Shown: positions 2,156 through 46,757 of the stretch, in pieces | Position numbering within the stretch: position 1 is the stretch's first letter | Layout of the letters: each line of letters opens with the position of its first letter | NCBI GenBank assembly: GCA_029881255.1 | Contig: JAOUMY010000001.1 | Coordinates: 868,001 to 932,000 of the forward strand | From: Gammaproteobacteria bacterium | GTDB lineage: Bacteria > Pseudomonadota > Gammaproteobacteria > S012-40 | Reading direction: 5' to 3' | DNA length: 64,000 bases | Position numbers and translations under genes: made by a program | The notes under the pieces: model-generated | What the model was told of the DNA's origin: nothing | The model's input: only the letters and a program-made list of their open reading frames with translations | The model's database searches: none

Positions 2156-3421
2156 ATGAAACTACTGGCATTCGGTATTAACCACAAGACCGCTCCCGTC
2201 GACATTCGGGAAAAGGTCGCATTTGCGCCAGAGCGCTTAGCTGAGGCCCTAAATGGGTTGGTGGCCGGCGCGCGTGTAAAAGAAGCCGCTATCTTGTCCA
2301 CATGTAACCGTACAGAGCTCTATTGTTGCCTGAACGACGCGGATACCAGCGCGATCGAACACTGGTTCTCCGACTATCACCACCTGGAACTGGAAAAGCT
2401 TCGTCCCTATTTCTATGCTCATCCGGATAATGAAGCTGTACGTCATCTCCTACGAGTCGCCAGCGGTCTTGACTCACTGGTGTTGGGCGAACCGCAAATT
2501 CTGGGCCAGGTAAAAACCGCCTATCGTCAGGCAACCGAGGCGGGCACGGTTGGAAAGATTCTCAATAGACTTTGTCAGCATACGTTTAATGTAGCCAAAC
2601 AAGTTCGCACAGATACCGCAATTGGCGAAAGCCCTGTTTCTGTAGCGTTTGCGGCGGTGAGTTTATCCAAACAGATTTTTAGCAATTTCGAAAAACATAC
2701 GGCGATGCTCATTGGCGCAGGCGAGACAATTGAGCTGGCAGCGCGTCACCTGCATGAAAACGGTATTGGCCGTATGATCATCGCGAACCGCACTGTACAA
2801 AGAGCGCAAGCCTTGGCAGATGAATTGGGCGCTTATGCGATTCCTCTAGGCGATATTCCTAAGCATCTGGCAGAAGCCGATATTGTTATTTCTTCGACGG
2901 CCAGTCCTTTGCCAATTTTAGGTAAGGGAAGTGTCGAAAGGGCGATAAGGGCGCGTAAACATCGTCCAATTCTGATGGTTGATATTGCTGTGCCGCGGGA
3001 TATTGAACCTGAGGTGGGTGAGTTGGCGGATATCTATCTCTATACCGTCGATGACCTCCAGGAAATTATTCAGGAAGGCTTGAAGAGTCGCCAGGAGGCC
3101 GCGTTCAAGGCAGAGGAAATCATAGATGGACAGGTTTCCAATTTCATGGGGTGGATGAAATCACAGGACTCGGTAAGTCTCATTCGAGAATTTCGTACCC
3201 AAATGGATATCCTCAAAGATGCGGAACTGGAAAAAGCGATTGCCGCACTGAATGGCGGCGCGAATGCAGAAGACGTTTTGCATCGTTTGGCGCATAATCT
3301 CACCAATAAACTCTCTCATAATCCTACGGCTGCGCTGCGTCGTGCCAGCCAGGATGGCGAAGTCGAATTGCTAAAAGCCATCCAGGAAATCTACAACCTC
3401 AAACATTCTGAAGAAGGTTAA
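2156..3421 (+). CDS. hemA: Glutamyl-tRNA reductase
   Basis: HemA reduces glutamyl-tRNA(Glu) to glutamate-1-semialdehyde with NADPH, the first committed step of tetrapyrrole synthesis by the C5 route. The 421-residue length is normal. The N-terminal catalytic domain carries the signature STCNRTELY with the nucleophilic Cys at residue 50. A Rossmann NADPH domain follows ([13 protein letters not shown], then ANRT), and a C-terminal helical dimerisation domain ends the protein. The gene is followed after two bases by prfA and then prmC, the common gammaproteobacterial hemA-prfA-prmC order. A second heme-pathway gene, hemE, lies at 41827. Confidence 0.97.
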
Positions 3422-3423
3422 CT

Positions 3424-4512
3424 GTGAAAGCATCCATACTGGCCAAGCTGGAGCATATCTCCGAGCGGGTAGAGGAGATAAATGCCTTGCTCGCCGATCC
3501 TGGTGTTATTGGTGATCAAAATAAATTTCGAAATCTGTCGAAAGAACACGCGCAGCTAACGCCGGTTGCTGATTGTTTTCATGGTTATCAACAAACGCTA
3601 GAGGATATCGAGGCGGCGCAAATGTTGATGGATGACAGCGACGCGGACATGCGCAAGATGGGCGTGGAAGAATTCAAGCTTGCGGAAAAACGCCGTGAAG
3701 AATTATCGCTGGAATTGCAAAAACTTCTGTTACCCAAAGATCCCCATGACGACAGCAATATCTTTCTTGAAATTCGCGCAGGTACTGGTGGAGACGAGGC
3801 GGCGATATTTGCCGGTGATTTATTCCGAATGTATTCAAAATATGCCGAGATACAGCGTTGGCAAGTGGAAACCATGAGTGAGAGCCTGGGCGAACACGGT
3901 GGTTACAAGGAGGTTATCGCACGCATCATTGGAAAAGGCGCCTATTCAAAATTGAAATTCGAATCAGGGGCGCATCGCGTGCAACGTGTGCCAGAAACCG
4001 AGTCACAGGGGCGCATACATACGTCTGCATGTACGGTCGCGATTTTACCTGAAGTCGACGAAGTGGAAGCGATCAACATCAATCCTGCAGATCTAAAAGT
4101 CGACACCTATCGCGCATCAGGCGCTGGTGGGCAGCACGTTAACAAAACTGATTCGGCCATTCGGATAACCCATTTACCGACAGGCATCGTTGTTGAGTGT
4201 CAGGACGAAAGATCACAGCACAAGAATCGCGCTCGCGCTATGTCTTTGTTGCAATCAAGGCTGTTAACACAGGAACAGGAAAAACAGGCTGCGGAACAGG
4301 CTGAGTCCAGACGTTTGCAAGTCGGCAGTGGAGATCGCTCTGAGCGCATACGTACCTATAATTTTCCGCAGGGGCGTGTTACCGATCATCGTATCAATCT
4401 CACTCTGTACAAACTGGAAGCGCTAATGGAAGGCGAAATGAATATGATCGTCGAACCGTTGATTAATGAATATCAGGCGGATCAGCTGGCTGCGCTTAGC
4501 GAAGAGAAATAG
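3424..4512 (+). CDS. prfA: Peptide chain release factor 1
   Basis: RF1 recognises UAA and UAG stop codons and triggers peptide release on the ribosome. The 362-residue protein has the universal GGQ motif at residues 235-237 within [10 protein letters not shown], and the conserved downstream [19 protein letters not shown] block. It starts with GTG two bases after the hemA stop, which suggests translational coupling. The glutamine of GGQ is methylated by PrmC, encoded immediately downstream. Confidence 0.97.
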
Positions 4513-4521
4513 AGGCGTGTT

Positions 4522-5355
4522 GTGCCCGAGTCTATACAACAGGCTTTAAAGCAGGCGTCGGAGAAAATGCCGAGCGACACAGCTGTTCTGGATGCTGAGT
4601 TATTGCTGTGTCATGTTCTCGATGTAAAGCGTGCTTATCTACGTACCTGGCCTGAGCGAGAGTTGAATGAGGACGAAGAGAAGTTCTTTCGCGCGCTGGT
4701 AAGCAGGCGTGCCACTGGTGAACCACTGGCTTATATTACAGGTACGCAGGAATTTTGGTCGCTAAGCCTCAAGGTGACATCGGATACCTTAATACCCCGC
4801 CCTGAAACAGAGTTGCTGGTGGAGCATTCGTTGGATTTGTTATCCAATGTCCGCAGCCCTGTCATTCTCGATTTGGGAACCGGCAGTGGAGCGATCGCGT
4901 TGGCGCTGGCGATTGAGCGCCCAGACGCAATGATTGTCGCAACGGACAAGTCTGCGGCAGCACTGGATATCGCAAAATTTAATGCGCTTAAACATCATCT
5001 GGCAAACGTTCACTTCGTGCGTGCGAGTTGGGGAGTATGTTTTGCCGATCATCAGTTTGATCTTGTCGTTAGTAATCCACCATACGTCGATAAGAATGAT
5101 CCAGATCTTGCCTCTGATGTTCAAAGATATGAGCCTGGAGTTGCCCTGTTTTCGCAAGCTGCGGGTTTGCAGGATATTGATGCAATCACCACGCAGTCGA
5201 AGAATTTATTAAAGGATGAAAGTTGGTTGTTACTTGAGCACGGTTGGAAACAGGCTGAAAATGTTCGCGCCCTGTTGATGCAGAAAGGCTTGACCGACGT
5301 TCAAACTGTAAAAGACTTGGCGGGTCATGACCGAGTGAGCATGGCGAGACGATAA
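4522..5355 (+). CDS. prmC: Release factor glutamine methyltransferase
   Basis: PrmC (HemK) N5-methylates the glutamine of the GGQ motif in RF1 and RF2 using S-adenosylmethionine. The 277-residue protein has the helical N-terminal domain, the SAM-binding motif I (ILDLGTGSGAIALALA) and the glutamine-binding NPPY motif at residues 185-188. It starts with GTG ten bases after prfA, the gene for its substrate. The start gives a normal family length and no better upstream start is visible. Confidence 0.96.
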   Translation: MPESIQQALKQASEKMPSDTAVLDAELLLCHVLDVKRAYLRTWPERELNEDEEKFFRALVSRRATGEPLAYITGTQEFWSLSLKVTSDTLIPRPETELLVEHSLDLLSNVRSPVILDLGTGSGAIALALAIERPDAMIVATDKSAAALDIAKFNALKHHLANVHFVRASWGVCFADHQFDLVVSNPPYVDKNDPDLASDVQRYEPGVALFSQAAGLQDIDAITTQSKNLLKDESWLLLEHGWKQAENVRALLMQKGLTDVQTVKDLAGHDRVSMARR

Positions 5356-5367
5356 CTAGAGCAGAAT

Positions 5368-5775
5368 ATGAAATCTTTCCCTATTTCACGCACCGTAGTT
5401 AATAAAATTCTGACTCAAGCACAACACAATATCGAAGTTGAAATATGTGGGCTGATTGGCGGTCGAGACAAACGACCTGAGACAGTCTATCCAGTGCCTA
5501 ATATTGCCTGCGATCAAACGCGCTTATTTGAAATGGACCCTGCTAGACAAATAGAGGCAATGCGCGAAATGCGCGAAGCGGGCGAACAACTGCTGGCGAT
5601 ATATCATTCCCATCCCACTGCCCCTGCGCGACCATCACTAAAAGATATTCATGATGCGGCTTATAAAGAGGTCGTTTATTTGATAGTGTCGCTCAGTACT
5701 GAGGGTGTATTGGAAATGCGTGGTTTTTTTATCAGGGATGATGTGACAGAAGAGATTGAATTGAGCCTGGAGTAG
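5368..5775 (+). CDS. JAMM/MPN+ family metallopeptidase (M67-like)
   Basis: This 135-residue protein has a complete JAMM zinc motif: HSH followed by seven residues, then S-L-K-D (residues HSHPTAPARPSLKD), with a conserved upstream Glu in VEICGLIGG. Bacterial stand-alone JAMM proteins of this size are zinc peptidases. Characterised members such as Mec cleave amino acids from the C-terminus of ubiquitin-fold sulfur-carrier proteins, and many sit near moeB/thiF genes. Here it follows prmC by 12 bases, presumably in the same operon, where Pseudomonas has moeB. No sulfur-carrier or moeB gene is in the window, so the substrate cannot be named. It converges with hslO, leaving 15 bases between stops. 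Confidence 0.88.
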   Translation: MKSFPISRTVVNKILTQAQHNIEVEICGLIGGRDKRPETVYPVPNIACDQTRLFEMDPARQIEAMREMREAGEQLLAIYHSHPTAPARPSLKDIHDAAYKEVVYLIVSLSTEGVLEMRGFFIRDDVTEEIELSLE

Positions 5776-11273: not shown

Positions 11274-12302
11274 ATTAAACCGCTATTTGCTTACGGGCAG
11301 GCAGCAGGGCTTCGGTTCGTCTTGCTGGTGGTGTTTTCCAGCGCCCTGATGACTTTGGACCATAGACAAGGTTTCTTGAGCGATATCCGCTCAGCCATCT
11401 CCGTTATTGTATATCCGATACAAGCACTGGTTAGTCTCCCGGTCTCCGCCAGCGGATGGCTGGGAGAAAATCTTTCCTCGCGCGAAGCCCTGATGGAGGA
11501 GAATGGGGCTTTACGTTCGCAAAACATTTTCCTGAAGGCGCAACTGCAAAAATTCGTTTCGCTTGAAATAGAAAATATGCGTTTGCGTAAGCTGTTGCAG
11601 GCGTCAGAGCGAATCAATGACCGGGTGCTTGCTGCAGAATTGCTTTCTGTTGACCTCGATCCTTTTAGCCATCAAGTCGTGGTAAACAAAGGATTACGTC
11701 ATGACATCTATAATGGCCAGCCGGTATTGGATGCTGAAGGGGTTTATGGCCAGGTCGTCCATGCAATGCCGCTGACCAGTCAGATCATGTTGATAACAGA
11801 CCCCGCCCATGCCTTGCCCGTTCAGTTCAATCGTAATGGCATCCGAACAATCGCCGTCGGTACCGGCGCGATGGACAAACTCGAGCTGTTACATATTCCT
11901 AATAATTCCGATGTGCAGGTCGGTGATGTATTGGTGACATCGGGTTTAGGTGGTGTTTTTCCAGTGGGATACCCCGTTGCCGAAGTAATTGAGTTTGAAC
12001 CTATCGTCAGTCAACCCTATGCAAAAGTATTTGCGCGCCCATTGGCTATGCTTGATCGTTCGCGGGAAGTTATGTTGGTTTGGCACCAGGAGCGCGTTGA
12101 TTTAATTGCTGCTCAGAAAGCAGCGGAGGAACAGGCGCTGCAACTAGAAGAAGAGAAAAAGCGCAAAAAGGAACAGGCAAAGCGTGATGAAAAGGCCAAG
12201 CCCAAGGCTAAGCCGAAACCAGAACCTCGCCCTGAGCCTGAACCGGAAATCGATCCTGTACCGGAAGACGTGATTGAGTCAGAGATTGATGTACAACCTT
12301 AA
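11274..12302 (+). CDS. mreC: Rod-shape-determining protein MreC, probable ATT start
   Basis: MreC is a bitopic membrane protein that activates PBP2-RodA. The family normally starts M-K-P-L-F followed by a membrane helix. The in-frame codons here read ATT-AAA-CCG-CTA-TTT from 11274, five bases after a strong GGAGGT (11263-11268). An in-frame TAG at 11268-11270 excludes any earlier start. The next possible start, TTG at 11322, would cut into the membrane helix and has no ribosome-binding site. I therefore assign ATT, giving 342 residues. After the helix come a coiled coil (residues about 65-105) and the beta-rich MreC domain. The last 60 residues are a highly charged Lys/Pro/Glu-rich tail beyond the usual fold. 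Confidence 0.9.
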   Translation: MKPLFAYGQAAGLRFVLLVVFSSALMTLDHRQGFLSDIRSAISVIVYPIQALVSLPVSASGWLGENLSSREALMEENGALRSQNIFLKAQLQKFVSLEIENMRLRKLLQASERINDRVLAAELLSVDLDPFSHQVVVNKGLRHDIYNGQPVLDAEGVYGQVVHAMPLTSQIMLITDPAHALPVQFNRNGIRTIAVGTGAMDKLELLHIPNNSDVQVGDVLVTSGLGGVFPVGYPVAEVIEFEPIVSQPYAKVFARPLAMLDRSREVMLVWHQERVDLIAAQKAAEEQALQLEEEKKRKKEQAKRDEKAKPKAKPKPEPRPEPEPEIDPVPEDVIESEIDVQP

Positions 12303-12333
12303 TTAAAGTGAGAACAAGGGAAGCGTTTGCGAA

Positions 12334-12825
12334 ATGAGTGAAATTCAACGCCGTGGCGGCAGCACAATCCTGACTACCTTTGTGGTGGCCTTAGCGCTGG
12401 TGGCGCTTCCGCTACCAGATTGGGCGCGTTGGATGCGGCCGGAATGGGCGACACTGGTGCTGATCTATTGGTGTCTGGCCTTGCCGGGGCGCGTGAATGT
12501 TGGTGTTGGCTGGATGGTCGGGTTGTTTGTCGATGTCATTACCGGAAATTTGCTCGGCCAACACGCCCTGGCTTTGTCTATTGTCGCGTTTGTGACAGTG
12601 AAAGTGCACAAACAAGTTCGTGTCTATCCCTTGTGGCAACAAGCGTTGAGTGTTTTCGTACTTGTTGCGCTGGGACAATTATTGGTTGTATGGGTAAAGG
12701 GAATTATCGGACAGGCGCCAGAGGACTGGCTGTACTGGGTGCCATCGCTAACAAGTGCCTTGTTGTGGCCATGGGTTTATATCGTATTGCGGGATGCTAG
12801 ACGTAAATTCCGAGTAGCAGGCTAG
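12334..12825 (+). CDS. mreD: Rod-shape-determining membrane protein MreD
   Basis: This 163-residue protein is almost entirely hydrophobic, with about five predicted membrane helices, and begins MSEIQRRGGSTILTTFVVALALV. It carries the family-typical RPEWATLVLIYWCLALPGRVNVGVGW region and a GNLLGQHAL motif. Position between mreC and mrdA fits MreD of the elongasome. It stops one base before the mrdA start, implying translational coupling. Confidence 0.95.
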   Translation: MSEIQRRGGSTILTTFVVALALVALPLPDWARWMRPEWATLVLIYWCLALPGRVNVGVGWMVGLFVDVITGNLLGQHALALSIVAFVTVKVHKQVRVYPLWQQALSVFVLVALGQLLVVWVKGIIGQAPEDWLYWVPSLTSALLWPWVYIVLRDARRKFRVAG

Positions 12826-12826
12826 A

Positions 12827-14689
12827 ATGAAATTTGGCGCGGATTCAAGAGTAAGACTCAAAGACCATTTGCGGGAAACGCAATTGTTTTCCAGTCGCGT
12901 AATTGCGGCAGTGTTTGTCGTGTCCTTGCTTGTGCTTACTCTGATCGGCCGCATGATTTACCTGCAGATACTGAGTCATGAGCATTACACTACTTTGTCG
13001 CAAAACAACCGGGTGAGTCTTGTACCGATTCCACCTACTCGCGGTTTGATCTATGACTTTAATGGTGTGGTGCTAGCGCAAAATATACCTTCGTTCACCC
13101 TGGAGATTGTTCCAGAAAAAGTTGAAGACTTTGACGAGACTATAGCGCGGCTGCGGGAAATCATGGAGATCACCGATGGTGATCTTGAGCGCTATCACAA
13201 AATACGCCGAAGAACGTCGAGATTTAAGCCAGTACCTCTACGCTTTCGTTTAACTGAGGAAGAAGTAGCACGTTTTGCGGTGAGGCGACATCAATACGAA
13301 GGTGTGGATATTCAGTCACGTCTGCTGCGGCAGTATCCTCAGGGGGCGCTGGGTGTGCATGCAATTGGCTATGTCGGCCGTATCAATGAAGCTGAAATGG
13401 ATACTCTGGATCAGGCCGAATATAACGGTACGACGCATATCGGTAAGAGTGGTGTCGAAAAATCCTATGAAGAGTCTCTGCATGGCAAAGTTGGATTTAA
13501 ACGTGTTGAAACCAATGCGCAGGGACGCATTATTCGTGTGCTTGAAGAACAAGCGCCCACGCCAGGAAAACACCTCTATTTAAACCTCGACGCGCAGGTG
13601 CAAATGATTGCCGAGCAAGCGCTGGGACAAAATCGAGGAGCCATCGTCGCAATCGATCCGCGCACCGGCGGTGTGATTGCCTTGGCCAGTATGCCGGCGT
13701 TTGATCCGAACCCATTTGTGAATGGAATCGACAGCGCTTCTTATGCCGCGCTTGCAAAGAACAAAGCCCAACCGTTGTTCAATCGCGCCCTGCGTGGACG
13801 TTATCCTCCCGGATCAACAATCAAACCTTTCGTCGGGCTTGCCGGTCTTGAATACGATTTGATACACGGCGGATCGCGCATTCCGTGTCCAGGTTATTAC
13901 ATGCTCAAGAATGACGATCGCCGATATCGCGACTGGAAAAAGGAGGGTCATGGCGAAGATGTTACTTTGCTTAGCGCCATTCGTGAGTCTTGTGATGTCT
14001 ATTTCTATGACCTTGCGCTTAATTTAGGTATAGATCGCATTCATGAATACATGAAGCAATTTGGTTTTGGTGAACGAACCGGTATTGATGTCTCAGGTGA
14101 AACGCTTGGCTTGTTACCTTCGCGTGAATGGAAGCGGCGCGTAAAACGTGAACCCTGGTATCCAGGTGAGACATTGATTAGCGGTATAGGTCAGGGTTTT
14201 AATCTGGCTTCGCCACTCCAACTGGCGTCGGCAATAGGCGCCTTTGCCAACTTCGGTTTACACATGCAACCTCGCCTGGGTTATGCAACGGAAATCCCCG
14301 GTACTTTCGAGCGAGAATACGTTGAGCCTGAAATTAAGGCGATGATACCCGTTTTGAAAAAACAGAATTGGGACTACGTCGTGAAAAGTATGGAACGAGT
14401 AGTTCACAGTGCGCGTGGAACAGCGAAAAATATCAGTGACGCGCCATACCATATCGCCGGGAAAACCGGCACTGCACAGGTTTTTGGTATTAAGCAAGGC
14501 GAGGAATACGTCAAAGAGGAAATCGAGTTGCACCTGCGTGACCACGCATTATTCGTAGCCTTCGCCCCGGTTGATGATCCGAAGATAGCAGTATCGGTAA
14601 TTGTAGAAAATGGTGGTGGCGGTGGCTCAACTGCGGCACCTATTGCGCGCGCTGTACTCGACGCCTACTTACTGAAGAAGACCATATGA
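12827..14689 (+). CDS. mrdA: Penicillin-binding protein 2, elongasome transpeptidase
   Basis: PBP2 cross-links new peptidoglycan during cell elongation. The 620-residue protein has a short cytoplasmic N-terminus, one membrane helix (about residues 23-45) and a pedestal domain. The transpeptidase domain has the active-site STIK with Ser330, the same number as in E. coli PBP2. The SxN motif is SCD in RESCDVYFYD, as in other PBP2 proteins, and K546-T-G follows in GKTGTAQV. It overlaps rodA by four bases (ATGA). Beta-lactams such as mecillinam target this family. Confidence 0.97.
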   Translation: MKFGADSRVRLKDHLRETQLFSSRVIAAVFVVSLLVLTLIGRMIYLQILSHEHYTTLSQNNRVSLVPIPPTRGLIYDFNGVVLAQNIPSFTLEIVPEKVEDFDETIARLREIMEITDGDLERYHKIRRRTSRFKPVPLRFRLTEEEVARFAVRRHQYEGVDIQSRLLRQYPQGALGVHAIGYVGRINEAEMDTLDQAEYNGTTHIGKSGVEKSYEESLHGKVGFKRVETNAQGRIIRVLEEQAPTPGKHLYLNLDAQVQMIAEQALGQNRGAIVAIDPRTGGVIALASMPAFDPNPFVNGIDSASYAALAKNKAQPLFNRALRGRYPPGSTIKPFVGLAGLEYDLIHGGSRIPCPGYYMLKNDDRRYRDWKKEGHGEDVTLLSAIRESCDVYFYDLALNLGIDRIHEYMKQFGFGERTGIDVSGETLGLLPSREWKRRVKREPWYPGETLISGIGQGFNLASPLQLASAIGAFANFGLHMQPRLGYATEIPGTFEREYVEPEIKAMIPVLKKQNWDYVVKSMERVVHSARGTAKNISDAPYHIAGKTGTAQVFGIKQGEEYVKEEIELHLRDHALFVAFAPVDDPKIAVSVIVENGGGGGSTAAPIARAVLDAYLLKKTI

Positions 14690-15828
14690 ACTATCAGCAA
14701 GGAACATCAGGCTGGAGTGATGCGCGACCGACGTCGGTAATGTCCAGTCTGCAAAACGCGCATATGGACTGGCCTTTGCTCGCCGGAATTCTGGTGCTAA
14801 CCTCCGTCGGCTTGGTCATACAATATAGCGCAAGCGGTCAGAATTGGGATCTGGTAATAAAACAAATGATGATGCTAGCACTTGCCTATGTTGTGATGTT
14901 TCTCATCGCGCAGGTTCAGCCGCGTCACATCGAGCTATGGACGCCCTGGTTCTTTGGTTTCGGAATCCTATTGCTGTTGATCGTGCTTTTTTTCGGCGAC
15001 ACGGGAAAAGGCGCGCAGCGCTGGTTGGATTTGGGGATTTTCCGCTTTCAACCTTCTGAGATCATGAAAATTGCGGTGCCGATGATGGTCGCCTGGTATG
15101 TAGCAGAAAAAGCCTTGCCGCCAAGTATTCCCCGCCTGATTGTTGCCATTTTCATTATACTGGTACCCGTGGTGCTGATCGCAAAACAGCCTGATCTAGG
15201 TACTTCGATATTGGTCGCAAGTGCTGGCGTGTTTGCACTTTTACTTACAGGCCTAAGCATGCGGTTGATCATTGGTGCAGGCGTTTTGCTTGCGTCAGTA
15301 GCACCTGTCGTGTGGTTTTATCTGATGCGTGACTATCAGCGGCAACGCGTATTGACGTTTCTTGACCCGGAAAGTGATCCACTGGGTTCCGGTTATCACA
15401 TCATTCAATCAAAAATCGCGATTGGCTCAGGCGGAATTTACGGAAAGGGCTGGCTGAACGGAACGCAGTCGCAGTTGGATTTTCTACCTGAACGAACCAC
15501 AGACTTTATCTTCGCTGTATTTGCCGAGGAATTTGGCATGATAGGTGTTATCGTTCTGTTGGCGATTTATCTATTCATTATTTTCCGCGGTCTGACGATT
15601 GCATATCAAGCTCAGTCTGGTTACACACGACTGCTGGCAGGCAGTCTGATCCTGACGTTCTTTGTCTATGTGCTTGTGAATATTGGCATGGTAAGCGGTT
15701 TGATGCCGGTAGTTGGCGTACCCTTGCCGCTCATTAGCTATGGCGGTACCTCGATGGTGACGCTAATGGCAGGCATGGGAGTGTTAATGTCGATTCAAAC
15801 TCACCGTAAATTGCTAACGGCCACTTAA
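14686..15828 (+). CDS. mrdB: SEDS peptidoglycan glycosyltransferase RodA
   Basis: RodA polymerises lipid II in partnership with PBP2. The 380-residue protein has about ten membrane helices. It carries SEDS hallmarks: GAQRWLDLGIFRFQPSE, KQPDLGTS, the long loop with LPERTTDFIFAVFAEEFG and the end motif VVGVPLPLISYGGTS. The start ATG overlaps the mrdA stop as ATGA, so translation is coupled to PBP2. The N-terminus carries about 25 polar residues before the first helix, slightly longer than in E. coli. Confidence 0.97.
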   Translation: MNYQQGTSGWSDARPTSVMSSLQNAHMDWPLLAGILVLTSVGLVIQYSASGQNWDLVIKQMMMLALAYVVMFLIAQVQPRHIELWTPWFFGFGILLLLIVLFFGDTGKGAQRWLDLGIFRFQPSEIMKIAVPMMVAWYVAEKALPPSIPRLIVAIFIILVPVVLIAKQPDLGTSILVASAGVFALLLTGLSMRLIIGAGVLLASVAPVVWFYLMRDYQRQRVLTFLDPESDPLGSGYHIIQSKIAIGSGGIYGKGWLNGTQSQLDFLPERTTDFIFAVFAEEFGMIGVIVLLAIYLFIIFRGLTIAYQAQSGYTRLLAGSLILTFFVYVLVNIGMVSGLMPVVGVPLPLISYGGTSMVTLMAGMGVLMSIQTHRKLLTAT

Positions 15829-15849
15829 TTATTAATTGAATTTAACGTT

Positions 15850-16866
15850 ATGAATACTCAAAAAATGCCAGTTGTTAACTGGGCTGTGGTTTTGTTGTGC
15901 CTCTGTATCATCCAATCATCTGCGTGGGCAAACGCTCAATCATTGACGCAAAACCCGAAGATAGTTTCCTTCATCGATACGATGGTAAAAAAACACAGCT
16001 TTGATCGAAAAGAGCTAGTTGGGATATTTTCGCGCGTTGAAGTATTGCCTGAAATTATCGAAAAAATTACTCGTCCTGCGGAGGCAATGCCATGGCACCG
16101 TTACCGAAAGATTTTCATGCAGGAAGAACGTATTGCCCAGGGTCGAGAGTTCTGGCAAAAAAATGAACAAGTTCTGCGTGAGGCGGAAAAGAAATACGGC
16201 GTGCCTCCCGAAATCATCATAGCCATCATCGGTGTGGAAACTCGATATGGACGACACACGGGTGGATTTCGCGTTCTGGATTCGCTAACTACCTTAGCCG
16301 TAGATTATCCGCGACGCAGTAAATTTTTTACCAAAGAGATGGAAGAGTTTTTGTTGCTGACGCGAGGCGAAGGATTTGACCCTTTGTCAGTTGAAGGCTC
16401 GTATGCTGGAGCGATAGGTAAACCGCAGTTTATGGCGAGTAGCTATCGTCGTTACGCAGTGGATTTTGACGGTGACGGTGTGCGAGATTTGCTAAATAAT
16501 AGTTCAGATGCGATCGGAAGCGTGGCAAATTATCTGAATCGTCATGGATGGAAGCGCGGACAACCTGTTGTTACGAAAGCAGCGATTAAAGGCAAAGTCG
16601 GTAAGCGCTTACTCAAAAAAGGTTTCAAGCCGCAAACAACATTAGCGGAATTCAAGCGGCAGGGTATCACTAGCCGCGAACGGCTGAATCAAGACACAAA
16701 ATCAGCACTGTTTCGTCTTGAGGCTGAAAAAGAAATGGAATATTGGTTAGGACTTGATAATTTTTACGCAATAACGCGTTATAATCACAGTGCTTTATAC
16801 GCGATGGCGGTGTATCAGTTGGCTCAAGCGATTGCGGAGTCACGGCAAAACATCGCGGCAAAATAG
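15850..16866 (+). CDS. mltB: Lytic murein transglycosylase B
   Basis: MltB cleaves glycan strands to 1,6-anhydro-muropeptides. The 338-residue protein has a Sec signal peptide (hydrophobic stretch ending about residue 28, ...SSAWA) with no lipobox, so it may be soluble. The catalytic Glu is residue 130 in GVETRYGRHTGG. A calcium-binding EF-hand-like loop, DFDGDGVRDL, follows in the usual position, and the GAIGKPQFMASSYR substrate-groove motif is intact. It sits 21 bases after rodA, and the order mrdAB-mltB-rlpA is common in gammaproteobacteria. Confidence 0.95.
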   Translation: MNTQKMPVVNWAVVLLCLCIIQSSAWANAQSLTQNPKIVSFIDTMVKKHSFDRKELVGIFSRVEVLPEIIEKITRPAEAMPWHRYRKIFMQEERIAQGREFWQKNEQVLREAEKKYGVPPEIIIAIIGVETRYGRHTGGFRVLDSLTTLAVDYPRRSKFFTKEMEEFLLLTRGEGFDPLSVEGSYAGAIGKPQFMASSYRRYAVDFDGDGVRDLLNNSSDAIGSVANYLNRHGWKRGQPVVTKAAIKGKVGKRLLKKGFKPQTTLAEFKRQGITSRERLNQDTKSALFRLEAEKEMEYWLGLDNFYAITRYNHSALYAMAVYQLAQAIAESRQNIAAK

Positions 16867-16940
16867 TGAACCAGTCTATGTATCTACGTGTCTACCTGGT
16901 TTAGGTAAATACGATATGTATCTGTAAATCGGCAAATATT

Positions 16941-17750
16941 GTGATTCAAACGAAAGTTCTTTCTACATCAGTTCTGGTGTCATCGCTAGTCGTATTCAAT
17001 GCGTGTTCGATGCTGGGTTTTCGTGACGGGCCACCACGTCATCCGCGTGGGTTCGATATCGCCAATATTGAAAATGCACAACCTCGCCCAGAACCATTGA
17101 GTAAATATGGTAACCCGGATAGTTATACGGTCAACGGCGTACGTTATGAAGTACTCGAAAGCGCCGCCGACTACCGCGCGACAGGCAAAGCATCGTGGTA
17201 CGGGAGCAAGTTTCATGGCAAGCGCACCTCAAGCGGCGAACCTTATGATGCGTTTGCGATGACAGCTGCACACAAAACTCTGCCTATTCCCTCTTATGTT
17301 CGTGTGCGCAATCTTGAGAATGACAAAGAAATCGTCGTGAAGGTTAATGACCGAGGACCATTTCACCCGGAACGCGTCATTGATTTGTCTTATGCAGCGG
17401 CAATGAAACTCGGTGTATATGCCAAAGGCACTGCGGAAGTGGAAGTGCTTGCCATTGATCCAACTGGATCAGGCGTGTGGCCAAGTCGATCGGCTAGCAG
17501 AGAGGACTTTATCAAGCCGCTTTTTGTGCAAATTGGCGCATATTCGGCGCAAGAAAATGCTGAGCGTGTGCAGTACGAGTTAAAAAAATCAGACATACAA
17601 AGCGGCATATATGTTGCCAGTAGTTTAAATGGACATGGCAAGGTTTTTCGTGTGCGAGTTGGACCTTTTACAGATCGACAAGACGCCGATCGAGTCGCAC
17701 GCGATTTATTAACTATGGGAATTCCTGAAGCAAAAATTGTGAGCGATTAA
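16941..17750 (+). CDS. rlpA: Septal-ring lytic transglycosylase RlpA
   Basis: RlpA is an outer-membrane lipoprotein that cleaves denuded glycan strands. The 269-residue protein starts with GTG and a signal ending VFNAC, a plausible lipobox. Residues about 70-160 form the double-psi beta-barrel with GKASWYGSKFHGKRTSSGE. The His of TAAHKTLP and the Asp of VNDRGPF correspond to the catalytic pair described in Pseudomonas RlpA. A C-terminal SPOR domain (about 190-269) should bind denuded septal glycan. Neighbouring mltB and the DD-carboxypeptidase support the role. Confidence 0.95.
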   Translation: MIQTKVLSTSVLVSSLVVFNACSMLGFRDGPPRHPRGFDIANIENAQPRPEPLSKYGNPDSYTVNGVRYEVLESAADYRATGKASWYGSKFHGKRTSSGEPYDAFAMTAAHKTLPIPSYVRVRNLENDKEIVVKVNDRGPFHPERVIDLSYAAAMKLGVYAKGTAEVEVLAIDPTGSGVWPSRSASREDFIKPLFVQIGAYSAQENAERVQYELKKSDIQSGIYVASSLNGHGKVFRVRVGPFTDRQDADRVARDLLTMGIPEAKIVSD

Positions 17751-17762
17751 GGTTGATTGATA

Positions 17763-18917
17763 ATGTTTGAAGTGAATAATGTACGTGTTTTCCTGAGAAT
17801 GTCCGGTTGCTTTTTGTTATTGGCTTTGTGCGCTGCTAATGTCCACGCGGCTATCAATAATAATCTGAAACTGGCGGCTAAGGCATACATACTCCAGGAC
17901 TTCAATAGCGGCAGAATTATCGCAGAACACAACGCCGACAAGACTGTAGAACCTGCCAGTTTGACCAAGATGATGTCGACCTACGTTGTAGAGCAGGAGC
18001 TTAAGCTTGGCAACGTCACTCTGACTGACATGGTAAAAGTGAGCAAAAAAGCCTGGAGTATGGGTGGCTCTCGCATGTTTATCGAAGTCGGTTCTACCGT
18101 AAGCGTTAAAGATTTACTTATGGGGGTGATAGTTCAATCGGGAAATGATGCCACAATTGCGTTGGCTGAGCATGTCGCCGGGACGGAAGATGCATTCGTC
18201 GCCTTGATGAATGAGTATGCACGTATGCTCGGTATGAAAGAGACAAACTTTGTGAATGCGACGGGCATGCCCCATAAAGATCATCGCACCACGGCGAAAG
18301 ACCTGGCGATTTTAGTTGGTGCACTAGTTCGTGATTTTCCGGAAACCTATGAATGGTATTCGATTAAAGAGTTCACCTTTAATGGTATAAAGCAATACAA
18401 CCGCAATAAGCTTTTGTGGCAGGATAAATATGTGGACGGGGTTAAGACTGGCCACACTGATTCGGCCGGATTTTGTCTCGCGGCTTCCGCCGTACGTGGC
18501 GACATGCGCTTGATATCCGTGGTGCTCGGAACCAAAAGTGAAAGTGCACGCGCCACCGAATCTCAGAAATTACTTACCTACGGATTTCGTTTTTTTGAAA
18601 CATACAAGCTATATGCTGCTTCGGAGCCTCTTACCACGGCGCGGGTATGGAAAGGTCAGGCTGAGCGAATTTCTCTGGGACTGGCGGAAGATCTGTACGT
18701 GACCATTCCCCGCGGCAGTTACGACAAGTTGAAAGCAACAATGAGCATAGACGCTAAAATTATTGCCCCGGCACATAAGGGAAGGATTTATGGGCAAGTG
18801 AATATCTCACTTGATAAAGAGCCATATTTAAATCGTGAATTGACGGCACTGAGTGATGTACAGGAAGGTGGTTTGATTACCAGCATTCTTGATGAAGTGC
18901 AGTTATTATTTGAGTAA
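17763..18917 (+). CDS. dacA: D-alanyl-D-alanine carboxypeptidase (PBP5/6 family)
   Basis: This enzyme trims the terminal D-Ala from peptidoglycan pentapeptides. From the ATG at 17763 it is 384 residues. An in-frame TTG two codons earlier is less likely because AAGGT is nine bases before the ATG. A Sec signal peptide ends near residue 29 (NVHA). Active-site motifs are SLTK (Ser66), SGN in QSGNDATIALAE and KTG in VKTGHTDSAGF. A beta-rich PBP5 C-terminal domain follows, and the protein ends with an amphipathic helix (LITSILDEVQLLFE) that would anchor it to the inner-membrane surface. The dacA versus dacC name is not resolvable by eye. Confidence 0.95.
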   Translation: MFEVNNVRVFLRMSGCFLLLALCAANVHAAINNNLKLAAKAYILQDFNSGRIIAEHNADKTVEPASLTKMMSTYVVEQELKLGNVTLTDMVKVSKKAWSMGGSRMFIEVGSTVSVKDLLMGVIVQSGNDATIALAEHVAGTEDAFVALMNEYARMLGMKETNFVNATGMPHKDHRTTAKDLAILVGALVRDFPETYEWYSIKEFTFNGIKQYNRNKLLWQDKYVDGVKTGHTDSAGFCLAASAVRGDMRLISVVLGTKSESARATESQKLLTYGFRFFETYKLYAASEPLTTARVWKGQAERISLGLAEDLYVTIPRGSYDKLKATMSIDAKIIAPAHKGRIYGQVNISLDKEPYLNRELTALSDVQEGGLITSILDEVQLLFE

Positions 18918-22970: not shown

Positions 22971-24413
22971 CTATTTCAACAGATTCAAAGCCAGTTGTGG
23001 TCGTAGATTTGCCTGTGCCAGCATTGCAATCCCACTCTTCTTGAGTATGAGTGAACGCGTCAACTCCGCTGTTTCCTTAGCATAGTCGGCATCTTCGATG
23101 CGACTACGTGAAGCGGAAAGGTTCACATGATAGGTTTCAGAGTTGCGTATGGTGGATTCAAATTTACTTTGTAATGCACCGTAGGCGGCACGTTGAGACG
23201 ACACACTCGCAATAGCGGCATCAACCATTGCCAACGCCTTATTGGAAGCGTCTACGGTGCTGACGTCTAGTTCTGCTACTTCGAGAAGCTTAGATGCCTC
23301 GGTGGAGTTAGTAATTACATCTCCCGCATTGCCCGTGACCGAAAACGATTTTTCAGAATCAAACGTAACCTGGCCTGTGACTTCCACCGTGTCTGCAACC
23401 GCGTCAGCGGTTAGCGTTTGTGTGCTGCTCGCGCCTTTAACTACAACATCACCGTCATTGGCGTTAGATGTATCGCTGAGGGTGATGTTTTCACCCCCAA
23501 AATGGGTCAGCGTAATACCAGAACCATCTTCTTTCACTGAGGCAACGACACCTGTTGTGGCAGTTTGATCGTTAAATGCTTGAGCTGCCTGATTGAGTGA
23601 CTCTACACCTGTATTGTTATCGATTTCAAAGGCAACGGTTTTGGTTTCGCCATTGTCTGCAGTGATATTCAATTGATATGAACCCGCAGCACTGAACTCT
23701 AGATCAATTTCTGTCTGCGCAAAGGCTGTAACACCGGTTGACTCAGAGACAAGATTGACGTTTTGCGCAATTGTCGCGGCAGAATCACCAGCATCGTAGT
23801 TTACCGTTGCCGTGCCTTCTGAACCGGTGATGTCGACACTACCTGGAGCGGCAATTCGACTGGCAAGGTCTACCGATGAGGTATTACCTTCCAGACGATT
23901 ATCGCCATACTGATCAGTCTGAAAATTCTTGGTGTTAGCGGAAATAACATTTCCTGCATTCGGGCCCACCTGAAACAGGGCGGTGTTAAAAGAGCCATCG
24001 AGCAATTTCTGCCCATTAAATTCTGTCGTCTGCGCAATACGATTAAGTTCGGAAGTTAACTGTCCGACTTCCTGTTGTAATGCATCACGATCCGAATCCG
24101 AATTGGTTGCATTAACGGATTGAACCGCCAATTCACGTACGCGCTGGAGTATACCGCTGGCTTCTTGTAAAGCACCTTCAGCAACTTGTGCCAGAGAAAT
24201 ACCGTCGTTGGTATTGCGTATGGCCTGGCTGGTGCCGAGTATTTGGGTCGTCATGCGTGCAACGATTGCCAGGCCGGCGGCATCATCGCGCGCACTATTG
24301 ATGCGTTTACCAGAAGACAGTCGCTCAAGTGGTGTCTTAATCTTGCTTTCCGTACGGTTCAGATTCTTCTGAGCGTTGATCGAAGACACATTGGTGTTGA
24401 TGTTCATGGGCAT
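22971..24413 (-). CDS. fliC: Flagellin
   Basis: Flagellin is the filament subunit of the flagellum. I start at the ATG at 24413 ([15 protein letters not shown]), seven bases after GGAG; the frame stays open to 24575 but that extension is not flagellin-like. The 480-residue protein has the conserved N-terminal D0/D1 helices ([22 protein letters not shown], then [11 protein letters not shown]). A beta-rich variable middle (about residues 180-390) follows, and the C-terminal D0 helix has [19 protein letters not shown] and RPQLALNLL. No cap, chaperone or other flagellar structural gene is nearby, so it is a stand-alone flagellin locus. I did not find a convincing sigma28 box. Confidence 0.95.
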
Positions 24414-24662
24414 GACAAATCTCCAGCCTATACGCGGGTGTGTCCTTTTTACGGCCGGCGGCGGAAAAAGCCTCGGATTTGCGTCACATTTCCATAGTCC
24501 GAATCTACGAAAAAGTGAAAAATGTGATGCGGTTGGCGGTTCTGAGCTTAAGTCTGAATGGCGTGGATAGTGCACGTGGATAGAAGTAGATTATCGATCT
24601 GTTTTGAACTAAGAAGCATAATGATATATTTTGTGGCGTTAATTTCGTTAGGACAGCGCGTA

Positions 24663-42891: not shown

Positions 42892-42910
42892 TATTTTTCA
42901 GATCGACTGA

Positions 42911-42933
42911 AGGGGCTGTTGAAGCCCCTTTTT
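42911..42933 (+). terminator. Intrinsic terminator after hemE
   Basis: AGGGGCT (42911-42917) and AGCCCCT (42923-42929) form a perfect seven-base-pair GC-rich stem with a GTTGA loop, followed by TTTT. It lies 20 bases past the hemE stop. Confidence 0.88.
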
Positions 42934-43258: not shown

Positions 43259-45580
43259 ATGTTGTCAGACCAAGTTCTGGATCAAAAGTCTCAAACTGCA
43301 GAGGCCTTAGTGCCGATGATTGATCTGTTTGCTGTCCTGGCGTTGGTCTTCATGCTGTATTCGACGCAGGAAATAATCGACGTAAAAGTAGAGACTGAGC
43401 AGCAGATACAGGAAATTGTTACACAAGTTGAAACAGAGAAAAAAGAGGAGTCACGGCGTCGAGCCTTAGCGCAGAATTCAAATTTGACATTAGACATGAT
43501 TAAGCAGCGACAGCAGGAACAAGCTGAAGAGCTGATGCAAAAATTCGCTCAATTATTGGCGGTAGAGCAAAAGAAATTTGCAGGTGAATACGAAGAGCTG
43601 GTAGTCGATATCGAAGACAAGCATGCTCGTCAGCGAGAAGATTTGGAAAAACAACGAAAGCAGGATCTTGCAATCGCAGAACAGAATTATCGCGACAATT
43701 TGGCTGCCAAAGAACGTGAGCTGGAAGAGCGAAAATATGTTGCCATAGAGCAAGCGGAACGTCGATTTGCCGGGCAACTTGTGGAACAACAAACGCGTTT
43801 GGAACAACAAAAGCGCAAAGAGTTAGAGATCGCGCGCTCTGCGCTTGAACAGGCACTTGCGGATCAAGAGTCTAAACTGGCTGATAAACGAAAAATCGAA
43901 TTGGCTAAGGTCCAGGCAGAATATGCGCGGACGCTAACCGATCAAAAAACTGCATTAGAACACCAGAAGCGAAAGGTGTTGGATGAGGCGAAGCTTGCAT
44001 TTGACCAGGCTTTGCGTGAAAACGAAAAGCAAGAGCTGGAGAACAGACGAGCTGTAATGGATAAGGCGCAAGACGAATACCGGCGCGCGTTATTGGCGCA
44101 AAAGATAGCGTTAGAAGCGCAGCGAAACCAGGAATTGAAAAATGCTGAGCAGGACTACCAGCGAGCTTTGTCAGAACAGCAGTTCGAGCTGGCACGAAAG
44201 AAACGGGAAGAACTCGCCAAGGCAAAGCAAATACATATGGCAGCGCTTTCCGAACAAAAAGCTGTTTTGGAAACACAAAAGCGCCATGATCTGGAAAAGG
44301 CGCATCAAGCATATCAGGACGCCATTAGAAGTAATAAAAGCCGTATGATTTCTGAGAAGAAAATGGAATTGACTCAGGCAAAGCGCGATTACGCAGATGC
44401 CTTAGCCGTGCAAAAAACGGCACTGGAGGCAGAAAAACAGATGGCGCTAAAGCAAGCGCACAAAGAGTATCGTGACGCCATAAAAAACAAAGAAACTGAT
44501 TTAAGCAAAGAAAAACAAATGGCTCTTGCTAAGGCGCAAGAAGAATACTTCCAGGCACTGGCAGAACAGAAAACGGCATTAGAGCGACAGACGCGCGAGA
44601 CTTTGAGTCGTGCACAGCAGGCATACGATAAGGCGCTCGCGTCAAAGCAGACCCAGATTGCAGCAAAAACTCATCGGGAACTTGAGCGCGCCAGGGCTGA
44701 GCATGAGTCTGCATTACAAGCTGAACGTGTTGCACTGAACGCGCAGAAGAAAGAAGCGCTTCAAAGAGCGCAACAGGAATATGATGACGCGCTTGCAGAA
44801 AACAAAGCGCAATTAGCAAAGGAAAAGGGTGTTGATCTGGCAAAGGCTAAAAGTGAATACGACAAAATGCTGGCAGAGCAAGTTTCTTCCCTGGAAACGC
44901 AAAAACACAATGAGCTTGGTTTAGTTAAAGCAAAATTCAGCAAGCAATTGGAAACAGAGCGCGCCAAGGCTGGTCGCTTGAAGGGTGAGTTAGATCAATA
45001 TGTAAAGGCCATGGAAGCCAAAGAAAAAATAGTATCGGAACTGAAGGAAAACTTTCTAGACTTTGATTCGCGCGCGGTAGAAATCGACAGTAAGACTGGG
45101 CGTGTGAAGCTGCATTTTCAACAGTCATACTTTAAGCGTGGAAGAGGCGAGCTAACCGATGAGATGAAGGCAGTATTGCGGGTAATGATCCCTAAATATG
45201 CGAAAAGTATTTACTCCAACAAGGAAGCGGCTAAACAACTGGGTTCTTTGAAAATTACGGGTCTTACATCCCCGGTGTATCGTGGCCGTTATGTGGATAT
45301 TAATGATAAATCGAGAGAGTCGGAAGCGGCGCGTAAATATAATCTCAAACTTAGCAACGATAGAGCGCTGGCGATGTACAACTTTATATTCTCCGATCCT
45401 TCCATGAGGAGCTTCCCCTATAGGGACGAATTGAAAGCCGATATGAGTATTTCCGCACAGGGATATTTGAACGCTAGCCCGGTACCGAAACGTCTGGTTG
45501 GGAAAAAGGCAAATTGCGTAGACTATGATTGCAGTCAGGAACAGGCGGCTGTATTGCAGTTCAGGATGAACCTGGACTAA
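43259..45580 (+). CDS. ExbD/MotB-like membrane protein with a long periplasmic helical-repeat rod and OmpA-like C-terminal domain
   Basis: From the ATG at 43259 it is 773 residues; a TTG at 43181 is in frame but adds an unusual 26-residue lead. A short N-terminus is followed by one membrane helix, LVPMIDLFAVLALVFMLYS. Its Asp22 lies in a P-x-I-D context, as in the ion-carrying Asp of ExbD and TolR. Residues about 119-560 are 17 tandem 26-residue helical repeats. Residues about 600-773 resemble the OmpA/MotB peptidoglycan-binding domain: YFKRGRGELTDEMKAVL, then SLKITGLTS, then YNLKLSNDRALAMYNFI. A MotA/TolQ-like gene follows after 31 bases. Together they look like an ion-driven stator with a periplasmic rod. 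The role is unknown. ZorB, MotB, TolR and ExbD are the nearest relatives I can name, but none has such a rod. Confidence 0.8.
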   Translation: MLSDQVLDQKSQTAEALVPMIDLFAVLALVFMLYSTQEIIDVKVETEQQIQEIVTQVETEKKEESRRRALAQNSNLTLDMIKQRQQEQAEELMQKFAQLLAVEQKKFAGEYEELVVDIEDKHARQREDLEKQRKQDLAIAEQNYRDNLAAKERELEERKYVAIEQAERRFAGQLVEQQTRLEQQKRKELEIARSALEQALADQESKLADKRKIELAKVQAEYARTLTDQKTALEHQKRKVLDEAKLAFDQALRENEKQELENRRAVMDKAQDEYRRALLAQKIALEAQRNQELKNAEQDYQRALSEQQFELARKKREELAKAKQIHMAALSEQKAVLETQKRHDLEKAHQAYQDAIRSNKSRMISEKKMELTQAKRDYADALAVQKTALEAEKQMALKQAHKEYRDAIKNKETDLSKEKQMALAKAQEEYFQALAEQKTALERQTRETLSRAQQAYDKALASKQTQIAAKTHRELERARAEHESALQAERVALNAQKKEALQRAQQEYDDALAENKAQLAKEKGVDLAKAKSEYDKMLAEQVSSLETQKHNELGLVKAKFSKQLETERAKAGRLKGELDQYVKAMEAKEKIVSELKENFLDFDSRAVEIDSKTGRVKLHFQQSYFKRGRGELTDEMKAVLRVMIPKYAKSIYSNKEAAKQLGSLKITGLTSPVYRGRYVDINDKSRESEAARKYNLKLSNDRALAMYNFIFSDPSMRSFPYRDELKADMSISAQGYLNASPVPKRLVGKKANCVDYDCSQEQAAVLQFRMNLD
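43613..44938 (+). repeat. About 17 tandem 78-base repeats coding 26-residue helical units
   Basis: The coding sequence contains 17 head-to-tail units of exactly 26 codons without a gap, residues 119-560 from the ATG start. Shared positions are Ala3, Leu4, Glu/Gln6-7, Leu11, Lys/Arg14-16, Leu19, Lys21, Ala22 and an aromatic or bulky residue at 26 (Tyr in 10 of 17, otherwise Phe, His or Leu). Two example units are ADALAVQKTALEAEKQ... and FQALAEQKTALERQTR.... Units have diverged enough that DNA identity is not obvious. Apolar positions follow a 4-3-4-4-3-4-4 spacing, seven core positions per 26 residues. That predicts a nearly straight or slightly right-handed coiled coil instead of a simple heptad one. 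Confidence 0.88.
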
Positions 45581-45611
45581 ATGACACGAAAACGATTGAG
45601 TCGAGGTATTT

Positions 45612-46643
45612 ATGTTCTTATTGTTTCTGCTGTCTTTGATATCTGCACTCGGTGCGTTGGTTTATGTGAGTGGTATTACGATAACTAACGAAATGATCGG
45701 GTTTGTGTTTGTTGCGCTAATACTTCTGGTGTTCTTTGTGTATGCGCTATTCAAATTTGGATTGCACTACAAAATTAGAGCCTTGAATAAGTATGTGATG
45801 GCATTTTACTACTCTGTATTCGAATACAAAAAACGTGCTCAGAAAAGTCTGCGCACGTCGACGTATGCACATAGTTTGAGGGATCAGGCAGAAGTCGCGT
45901 TATCGGCCAATTTTGATCCGGCAGTTGCTAAAGTGGCGATGAAGGTGCCAGTCTCGATGTACACCAAGGATAGCGCTTACATGCCTGTTTTACGTGCAAG
46001 AATCAAGGAGGCAGAACGTTTGAAGCAGGAAGCACGTGATTTGGAGGAGCAGGCTTCAAAGCTAATCGAACAAACCGAAGACATTCTAGTGAAGAAAAAG
46101 ATAAAGGAAAAATCTAAAAGAGGTTCGATGTTGGAGCGTCTATTTGGCATTCAGGAAGGCGTGCAAAACATGGTCGAATTGACAGTCAATGAAGTGGCCG
46201 ACCACGATTACAGTCATACGCCGGAATATGAAATCATTACGCATATCGCTTTAGATAATAATCCGTATTTTACGTCCGTCTACAAAATATTCAGCGCAGA
46301 AAACGTTGCCGCGATACTTAATCGGGCTCCGTTTATGATTATTCTAATCGGGATAATTGGTACGTTCGCCGGGTTTTTTCTTGCATTGTCCGAAGGAGGC
46401 GATATCAAAACCGGGGCTGCAGTAGCGATCGTCAGCTCTCTGGTAGCGTTGCCGGTATCGCTTGCGGTCGACTACATTAACACGCTGTACCCGGACAGTG
46501 AACGCTACCAGCACGCGTTCAGCCGTTACAAGATAAGCCTGGAAATTCTGTTTAATTTTGAAAAAGACCGATATCCAAACCGCCGACAGCGCAGGGATAG
46601 CGACACTAGTGCTTACCAAAAACTCGACGAATTGGATGCTTAG
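45612..46643 (+). CDS. MotA/TolQ/ExbB-like proton-channel protein
   Basis: The 343-residue protein has two N-terminal membrane helices (about residues 1-20 and 29-50). A cytoplasmic charged region with a short coiled coil (about 125-175) follows, and then two helices at about 240-259 and 267-290. The third helix contains LIGIIGTFAGFFLAL, matching the G-L-L-G-T-V-x-G motif of the MotA/ExbB/TolQ family. The fourth, AVAIVSSLVALPVSLAVDYI, matches the channel-lining helix. Four helices and the large cytoplasmic loop are closer to MotA/ZorA than to three-helix ExbB. A GAGG precedes the ATG. It is the second gene of the operon with the ExbD/MotB-like protein and ends at a terminator. Confidence 0.82.
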   Translation: MFLLFLLSLISALGALVYVSGITITNEMIGFVFVALILLVFFVYALFKFGLHYKIRALNKYVMAFYYSVFEYKKRAQKSLRTSTYAHSLRDQAEVALSANFDPAVAKVAMKVPVSMYTKDSAYMPVLRARIKEAERLKQEARDLEEQASKLIEQTEDILVKKKIKEKSKRGSMLERLFGIQEGVQNMVELTVNEVADHDYSHTPEYEIITHIALDNNPYFTSVYKIFSAENVAAILNRAPFMIILIGIIGTFAGFFLALSEGGDIKTGAAVAIVSSLVALPVSLAVDYINTLYPDSERYQHAFSRYKISLEILFNFEKDRYPNRRQRRDSDTSAYQKLDELDA

Positions 46644-46733: not shown

Positions 46734-46757
46734 GCCCCGTCCCCGGGGCTTTTTTTC
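46734..46757 (+). terminator. Intrinsic terminator after the motor-like operon
   Basis: GCCCC (46734-46738) and GGGGC (46745-46749) form a short GC-only stem with a six-base loop, followed by seven T residues. It closes the two-gene unit and separates it from the chemoreceptor gene. Confidence 0.75.

Follow-up and report, generated by a model that had tools for sequence, protein, structure and literature searches.

This report concerns two adjacent genes in a 64,000-nucleotide stretch of DNA (the window; positions 868,001 to 932,000 of contig JAOUMY010000001.1, assembly GCA_029881255.1) from a gammaproteobacterium of the lineage S012-40. The pair probably encodes a self-contained ion-driven motor related to ZorAB, tied to the cell wall by a long rod and working on the envelope or sensing it. 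The first gene (43259-45580, plus strand) specifies the B subunit, a rod protein of 773 residues in which a transmembrane (TM) helix is followed by a long helical rod and an OmpA/ZorB-like C-terminal domain. The second (45612-46643, plus strand) specifies the A subunit, a channel protein of 343 residues with four TM segments. Rechecking of the translations confirmed that both open reading frames (ORFs) lie where a first-pass annotation of this DNA had placed them, and the start of the rod gene is backed by homologues that begin MLSE. By sequence, both subunits are nearest to ZorAB among known systems.

Homologues of both genes are found in the same order in other genera and families, so the pair is not a product of chance. 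Protein searches located it in three further genomes of the same family, in one metagenome-assembled genome of Pseudohongiella, in G352, a genome from a different family, and, as a distant match, in G370, in whose order it is carried by 26 of 41 genomes. We read 33 loci, representing at least three gammaproteobacterial families, and they formed two subfamilies. Type A (20 loci) has channels of about 350 residues, about 190 of them in a cytoplasmic loop, and rods made of 26-residue repeats. Type B (13 loci) has a 299-residue channel and 46-residue rod repeats, and here the rod and channel genes are contiguous or overlap. Type B channels share about 21-24% identity with the channel of the window, and a profile comparison of the type A and type B channel sets gave a probability of 98.7%. 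Rod-gene homologues were present at 32 loci. At all 31 loci where both genes were read the channel gene came immediately after the rod gene on the same strand, with spacings ranging from 48 bases to an overlap; of the two loci outside this count, L080 stops at a contig end and the channel of L074 was matched by search but missed by ORF picking. Two copies are apparently decaying: the rod gene of L070 carries a frameshift, and at L075 the rod gene has lost its 5' end and the channel C-terminus is altered. Class-wide and phylum-wide samples added few true members, and the family looks patchy within the Gammaproteobacteria. Weak channel matches at the phylum level were rejected, since L094 and L095 proved to be ExbB-like systems and L096 and L097 long ZorA-like proteins.

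The channel core has the attributes of the MotA/ExbB/TolQ/ZorA class, judged by its residues and profile matches. Hydropathy analysis of the window's channel revealed four hydrophobic segments (residues 1-19, 29-47, 241-259 and 268-286), the protein ending about 57 residues past TM4. The sequence GIIGTFAGFF, which the first-pass annotation had singled out in a four-helix channel, is located in TM3. It is part of a TM3-TM4 core (46329-46475, plus strand) in which Thr251 (46362-46364), Ser276 (46437-46439), the GI-GTF core and an NTL motif are invariant across 22 aligned channels from both subfamilies. In ZorAB and MotAB the TM aspartate of the B subunit and channel Thr/Ser residues line the ion path (PMC11890865). 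When the family was compared with Pfam MotA_ExbB (PF01618), 9 of the 22 members matched (best E 1.7e-5), and up to 15 of 22 matched ZorA models (best E 1e-8). The best matches of the channel profile in the PDB were the ZorA structures 8vvn (E 2.3e-5) and 8qyh (8e-4). Queried singly, the window's channel gave no convincing match to any family, the MotA_ExbB and ZorA models included, and hhalign comparison of the channel profile with MotA, ExbB and ZorA gave no signal, the alignments being too shallow.

The rod protein supplies the other half of the putative ion path. Its N-terminal TM helix (43307-43366, plus strand), recognised by its conserved motif, contains Asp22 (codon 43322-43324) in the sequence P19-M-I-D22, exactly the P-x-I-D context that had been reported earlier. 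The motif reads P[ML][IV]DLFAVLA[LI]VFM[LI]YS in type A and SYSDLFMVLAF in type B, and the aspartate was kept in all 29 matched rod proteins. Since this aspartate, Thr251 and Ser276 are invariant in both subfamilies, ion coupling appears likely.

At its other end the rod protein carries an OmpA/ZorB-like domain (residues 590-773; 45026-45577, plus strand) with the motifs GLTSP and NLKLSNDR. The OmpA/MotB-like domain postulated in the first-pass annotation was upheld by hidden Markov models and by predicted fold, with ZorB as the nearest relative. The PADLOC ZorB1 model scored 72-84 bits against these C-terminal domains (E 1.2e-20). Because the model matches ordinary OmpA-like proteins too, it was calibrated on 274 genomes: the window's domain reached 77 bits, the strongest matches of ZorB length 100-196 bits, and the tail of MotB/OmpA-like proteins lay below about 70. 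The score was dropped as stand-alone proof of Zorya, since the model found matches in 256 of the 274 genomes. With a profile of the domain, the single PDB sequence at E ≤ 0.01 was ZorB of type II Zorya (8vvi, E 4.4e-5), the ZorB segments GHTSSMWEG and NMTLSQERT aligning opposite GLTSPVYKG and NLKLSNERA, respectively. The AlphaFold model of the domain (predicted local distance difference test, pLDDT, 77) likewise had ZorB as its top Foldseek match (E 2.7e-6), with a VIA-align Z score of 13.7 and a root mean square deviation of 4.2 over 175 residues, against Z scores of around 10-11 for the Pal, OmpA and MotB domains. The usual ligand motif of OmpA-like domains includes an aspartate and an arginine that touch diaminopimelate. 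The arginine (of N-x-x-L-S-x-x-R) is kept in all 32 rod proteins, and the usual aspartate position is occupied by serine (GxTSP or GFASP), as in ZorB of type II. ZorB residues at the corresponding site bind peptidoglycan and are required for defence (PMC11890865).

Between these conserved ends lies the rod, extending from about residue 37 to 588 (43367-45022, plus strand). It is free of proline and comprises about 550 residues, not the 442 first estimated. Residues 105-572 (43571-44974) form a regular array of 18 units of 26 residues with the consensus KQKREELEKAQQEYDDALAEQKTALE, visible as repeat lags of 26, 52 and 104. Large hydrophobic residues recur with a period of 3.715 residues and a power of 33; the maximum in 500 shuffled sequences was 11.8, so the periodicity is not due to chance. 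An alpha helix that runs straight completes a turn about every 3.6 residues, and a hydrophobic period longer than this leads to a right-handed supercoil, which is therefore predicted for the window's rod; the repeat fits a hendecad plus a pentadecad spacing (26 = 11 + 15). Type B rods, with their 46-residue repeat and a period of 3.54, are predicted to form a left-handed supercoil. Given that both ends of the protein are conserved but the repeat and the predicted handedness change from one rod type to the other, we infer that the rod is a spacer or tether. Rod length in intact copies varies from 358 to 748 residues, equivalent to 53-111 nm as a single straight helix (about 82 nm in the window), and the rods of L013 and L014 exceed that of the window by 130 residues, exactly five 26-residue units.

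It might be asked on which side of the membrane the rod is situated. A C-x-x-Y-x-C motif in the C-terminal domain (Cys753 and Cys758; 45515-45532, plus strand), probably a disulfide, recurs without exception in the 32 rod proteins, and of the 29 listed, 27 contain no further cysteine; as for the two exceptions, the third cysteine in the window's ORF precedes the true start and the L074 protein was taken from an extended ORF. Such strict pairing would suit a periplasmic disulfide. The type A flanks differ in charge, the one that follows the TM helix being the more acidic, and in type B the flanks are near neutral. Together with the homologous TM helix, the paired cysteines and flanking charges support, without proving, a topology in which the N-terminus is inside and the rod periplasmic.

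Despite its kinship with ZorAB, the pair is, as far as gene content and sequence indicate, not a Zorya system: the ZorA tail is absent, the gene order is reversed, ZorC was not found and type A loci have no third gene in common. The shared features are the TM aspartate, the TM3-TM4 core with its Thr/Ser residues and the ZorB-type C-terminal domain with G-x-T-S and N-x-x-L-S-x-x-R motifs (Zorya I/II; 8vvi, 8vvn, 8qyd; PMC11890865). The B subunit thus resembles ZorB in its TM aspartate and OmpA-like domain, with wall binding predicted, but a rod of about 550 residues separates the two. In Zorya the long part is the cytoplasmic tail of ZorA, which is needed for function (PMC11890865), whereas here it is on the periplasmic B subunit. 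A long tail of the ZorA type is absent from the 343-residue channel (ZorA in the control locus L026 has 718 residues), and the four TM segments and long loop of the type A channel are likewise unlike ZorA. A Zorya operon has the order zorA-zorB and includes an effector (ZorC/D or ZorE); the reversal relative to exbBD and zorAB, already noticed in the window, extends to 31 of 31 loci. A search for ZorC (EH_Signature) found none in 26 pair-bearing genomes but did detect it in G243, the Zorya-bearing control. Among 127 neighbouring genes there was no Zorya effector in the PADLOC families listed (25 of 33), ZorD and ZorE not having been searched for genome-wide.

Other motors of the class are further removed. 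MotAB and PomAB share a channel, with four TM segments as in type A, and a TM-aspartate axle with an OmpA-like wall-binding domain, but they have a short plug and linker in place of a 550-residue rod, and the pair also occurs in genomes without FliG. ExbBD and TolQR belong to the same superfamily, and the axle TM helices of ExbD and TolR have letters resembling P-x-[IV]-D. ExbD and TolR are, however, short and without an OmpA-like domain, depend on a TonB or TolA transducer and are encoded in the order A-B. The extension of GldM is a chain of folded domains, in contrast to the helical rod and OmpA-like end seen here. GldLM, which drives type IX secretion and gliding, likewise has a large periplasmic extension on the axle subunit (PMC9389320); it is set apart by description rather than by sequence. 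According to a survey of MotAB published in 2025 the B gene is downstream of the A gene in most genomes, and B subunits with 'extraordinarily large periplasmic domains' are mentioned among large generic ion transporters (PMC12505986). The survey describes no system like the present pair and saw no OmpA homology in non-flagellar B subunits (PMC12505986). Among the papers searched there was no description of this rod/channel pair either, in keeping with the original remark that no described system had this architecture.

The explanation for these features probably lies in the following arrangement. By homology, a ring of five channel subunits would enclose a dimer of the rod protein in the inner membrane, and ions passing Asp22 of the rod protein and the channel Thr/Ser ring would make the ring of channel subunits rotate relative to that dimer. 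The rod would emerge into the periplasm as an extremely long coiled coil, at whose far end two ZorB-type domains, each with a disulfide, would grip the cell wall. Periplasmic widths of a few tens of nm are usual. A straight rod is several times longer than this, which makes a radial fit impossible, so that the rod would run along the wall or be folded. The stator class proposed in the first-pass annotation stood (a MotA/ExbB/ZorA-class channel with a MotB/ZorB-class axle and an OmpA-like end), but a rod that passes torque radially to peptidoglycan or the outer membrane meets a geometric problem. Most likely the rod lies along the wall as a tether, a role that fits rod types differing between conserved ends, and the motor would pull on, twist or sense wall tens of nm away. 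As there is neither a cytoplasmic tail nor an effector or third gene, the output might consist of mechanical work done on the envelope or of the gated flow of ions itself.

Several observations weigh against this explanation. The channel-to-ZorA matches are weak and short and are confined to TM3-TM4, and the channel profile also matches one cytochrome oxidase in the PDB (E 3.8e-5). The AlphaFold model of the channel (pLDDT 43) is too poor for a fold search. The wall-binding motif is kept in part only, the arginine being retained and the aspartate replaced by serine. Finally, a load partner may be encoded elsewhere in the genome.

The surroundings of the genes bear on the alternatives. In the window the pair follows a hemE-like gene (URO-D match) and precedes a chemoreceptor-like gene. 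Terminator-like hairpins are found on both sides, at the hemE end (42909-42931, plus strand) and 3' of the channel gene (46734-46749, plus strand), and the gap between the two genes measures 31 bases (45581-45611); the two terminators and the spacing agree with the first-pass annotation. An Rfam search of the locus matched no RNA family. Tabulating the neighbours of homologues, a check suggested in the first-pass annotation, yielded no third gene recurring beside type A loci, and, as claimed there for the window, no effector gene adjoined the pair. Type B loci share metabolic neighbours (genus-level synteny), as expected from inheritance at one site. The 127 neighbours encode mostly housekeeping, regulatory or transport proteins; a few loci are near genes for LysM/M23 proteins, and at L013 fliLMN genes lie about 3 kb downstream of the pair. 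At L024 Wadjet-like JetA and JetB genes and an SMC-like gene adjoin a type A pair (13383-18905); a defence-island reading of this single case was dropped. At the Pseudohongiella locus L015 the genes flanking the type A pair comprise another, ordinary MotA/MotB-like pair and, as judged by eye, lookalikes of vWA, PP2C phosphatase and protein kinase genes (2868-5451 and 11504-14319).

A divergent phage defence is one alternative: an offshoot of Zorya whose rod, lying in the periplasm, detects the damage done to the wall by entering phage, infection being halted by an ion leak or an unlinked effector. The closeness of both subunits to ZorAB, the patchy distribution and the loci next to Wadjet and the vWA-PP2C-kinase set speak for it. 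ZorC was not found in the 26 pair-bearing genomes, however, and the pair lacks an adjacent effector and has mostly housekeeping neighbours. A channel search of plasmid, viral and phage collections gave no match, and a pair carried by 26 of the 41 genomes of one order looks more like a lineage trait. We therefore consider defence rather unlikely. Doubts are stronger about a role in motility, as an accessory flagellar stator or as a motor of the gliding type that moves surface structures by means of its wall-anchored rod. The motor class does include flagellar and gliding motors (PMC9389320), and chemoreceptor and fliLMN genes are near the pair in the window and at L013, respectively, but flagellar neighbours are not conserved. 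In draft genomes of G370's order FliG_C was found in 18 of 26 pair-bearing and 10 of 15 pair-less genomes, and five of the eight pair-bearing genomes in which it was undetected are 91-96% complete, so the pair is not obligatorily flagellar. Ordinary MotA-class proteins are also encoded separately; the window's genome has flhA and nine PF01618 matches elsewhere, and ordinary motors must exist there besides the pair. A passive tether or gated channel that links membrane to wall without being a motor, suggested by rods resembling interchangeable spacers and by the lack of a load partner beside the genes, is highly improbable given the invariant TM aspartate and channel Thr/Ser residues of both subfamilies.

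Other motor-like and flagellar genes were noticed in the window's own genome. An FliG_C search of this 99% complete genome found no FliG of ordinary size. At L129 (6543-12045; G000:C4, about 64500-70050) genes for MotA, MotB and proteins of 377 and 231 residues are followed by one for a 710-residue protein with a signal-peptide-like start and an FliG_C match (E 1.8e-19). G004, G008 and G009 encode similar FliG_C proteins of 700-730 residues. It is odd that a protein which is apparently exported, and is encoded next to MotAB, should carry a FliG-like domain. At L017 (5145-6932; G000:C1, near 460145-461931) a 332-residue MotA/ExbB-like protein precedes a 257-residue protein whose TM helix and vWA-like stretch resemble vWA force transducers (PMC12204202). 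In the window itself a flagellin-like gene (22971-24575) stands alone among non-flagellar genes, flhA being on another contig.

The known motors of this class hand their work to a partner, be it a rotor, a force transducer, a secretion channel or a defence effector. The pair described here, which we regard as a probable envelope motor related to ZorAB, is conserved without a detectable partner gene, and its only large moving part would be periplasmic. It may even represent a new class of standalone envelope motor, of the ZorAB type, doing long-range work on the wall through a coiled-coil arm that runs along it, in two versions of opposite predicted coiling, and possibly an ancestral or repurposed Zorya motor without effectors; this wider proposal is tentative. 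With only two genes, the pair would be a minimal system in which to ask what a ZorAB-type motor does alone, and would bear on whether Zorya descends from an envelope machine or was the source of one.

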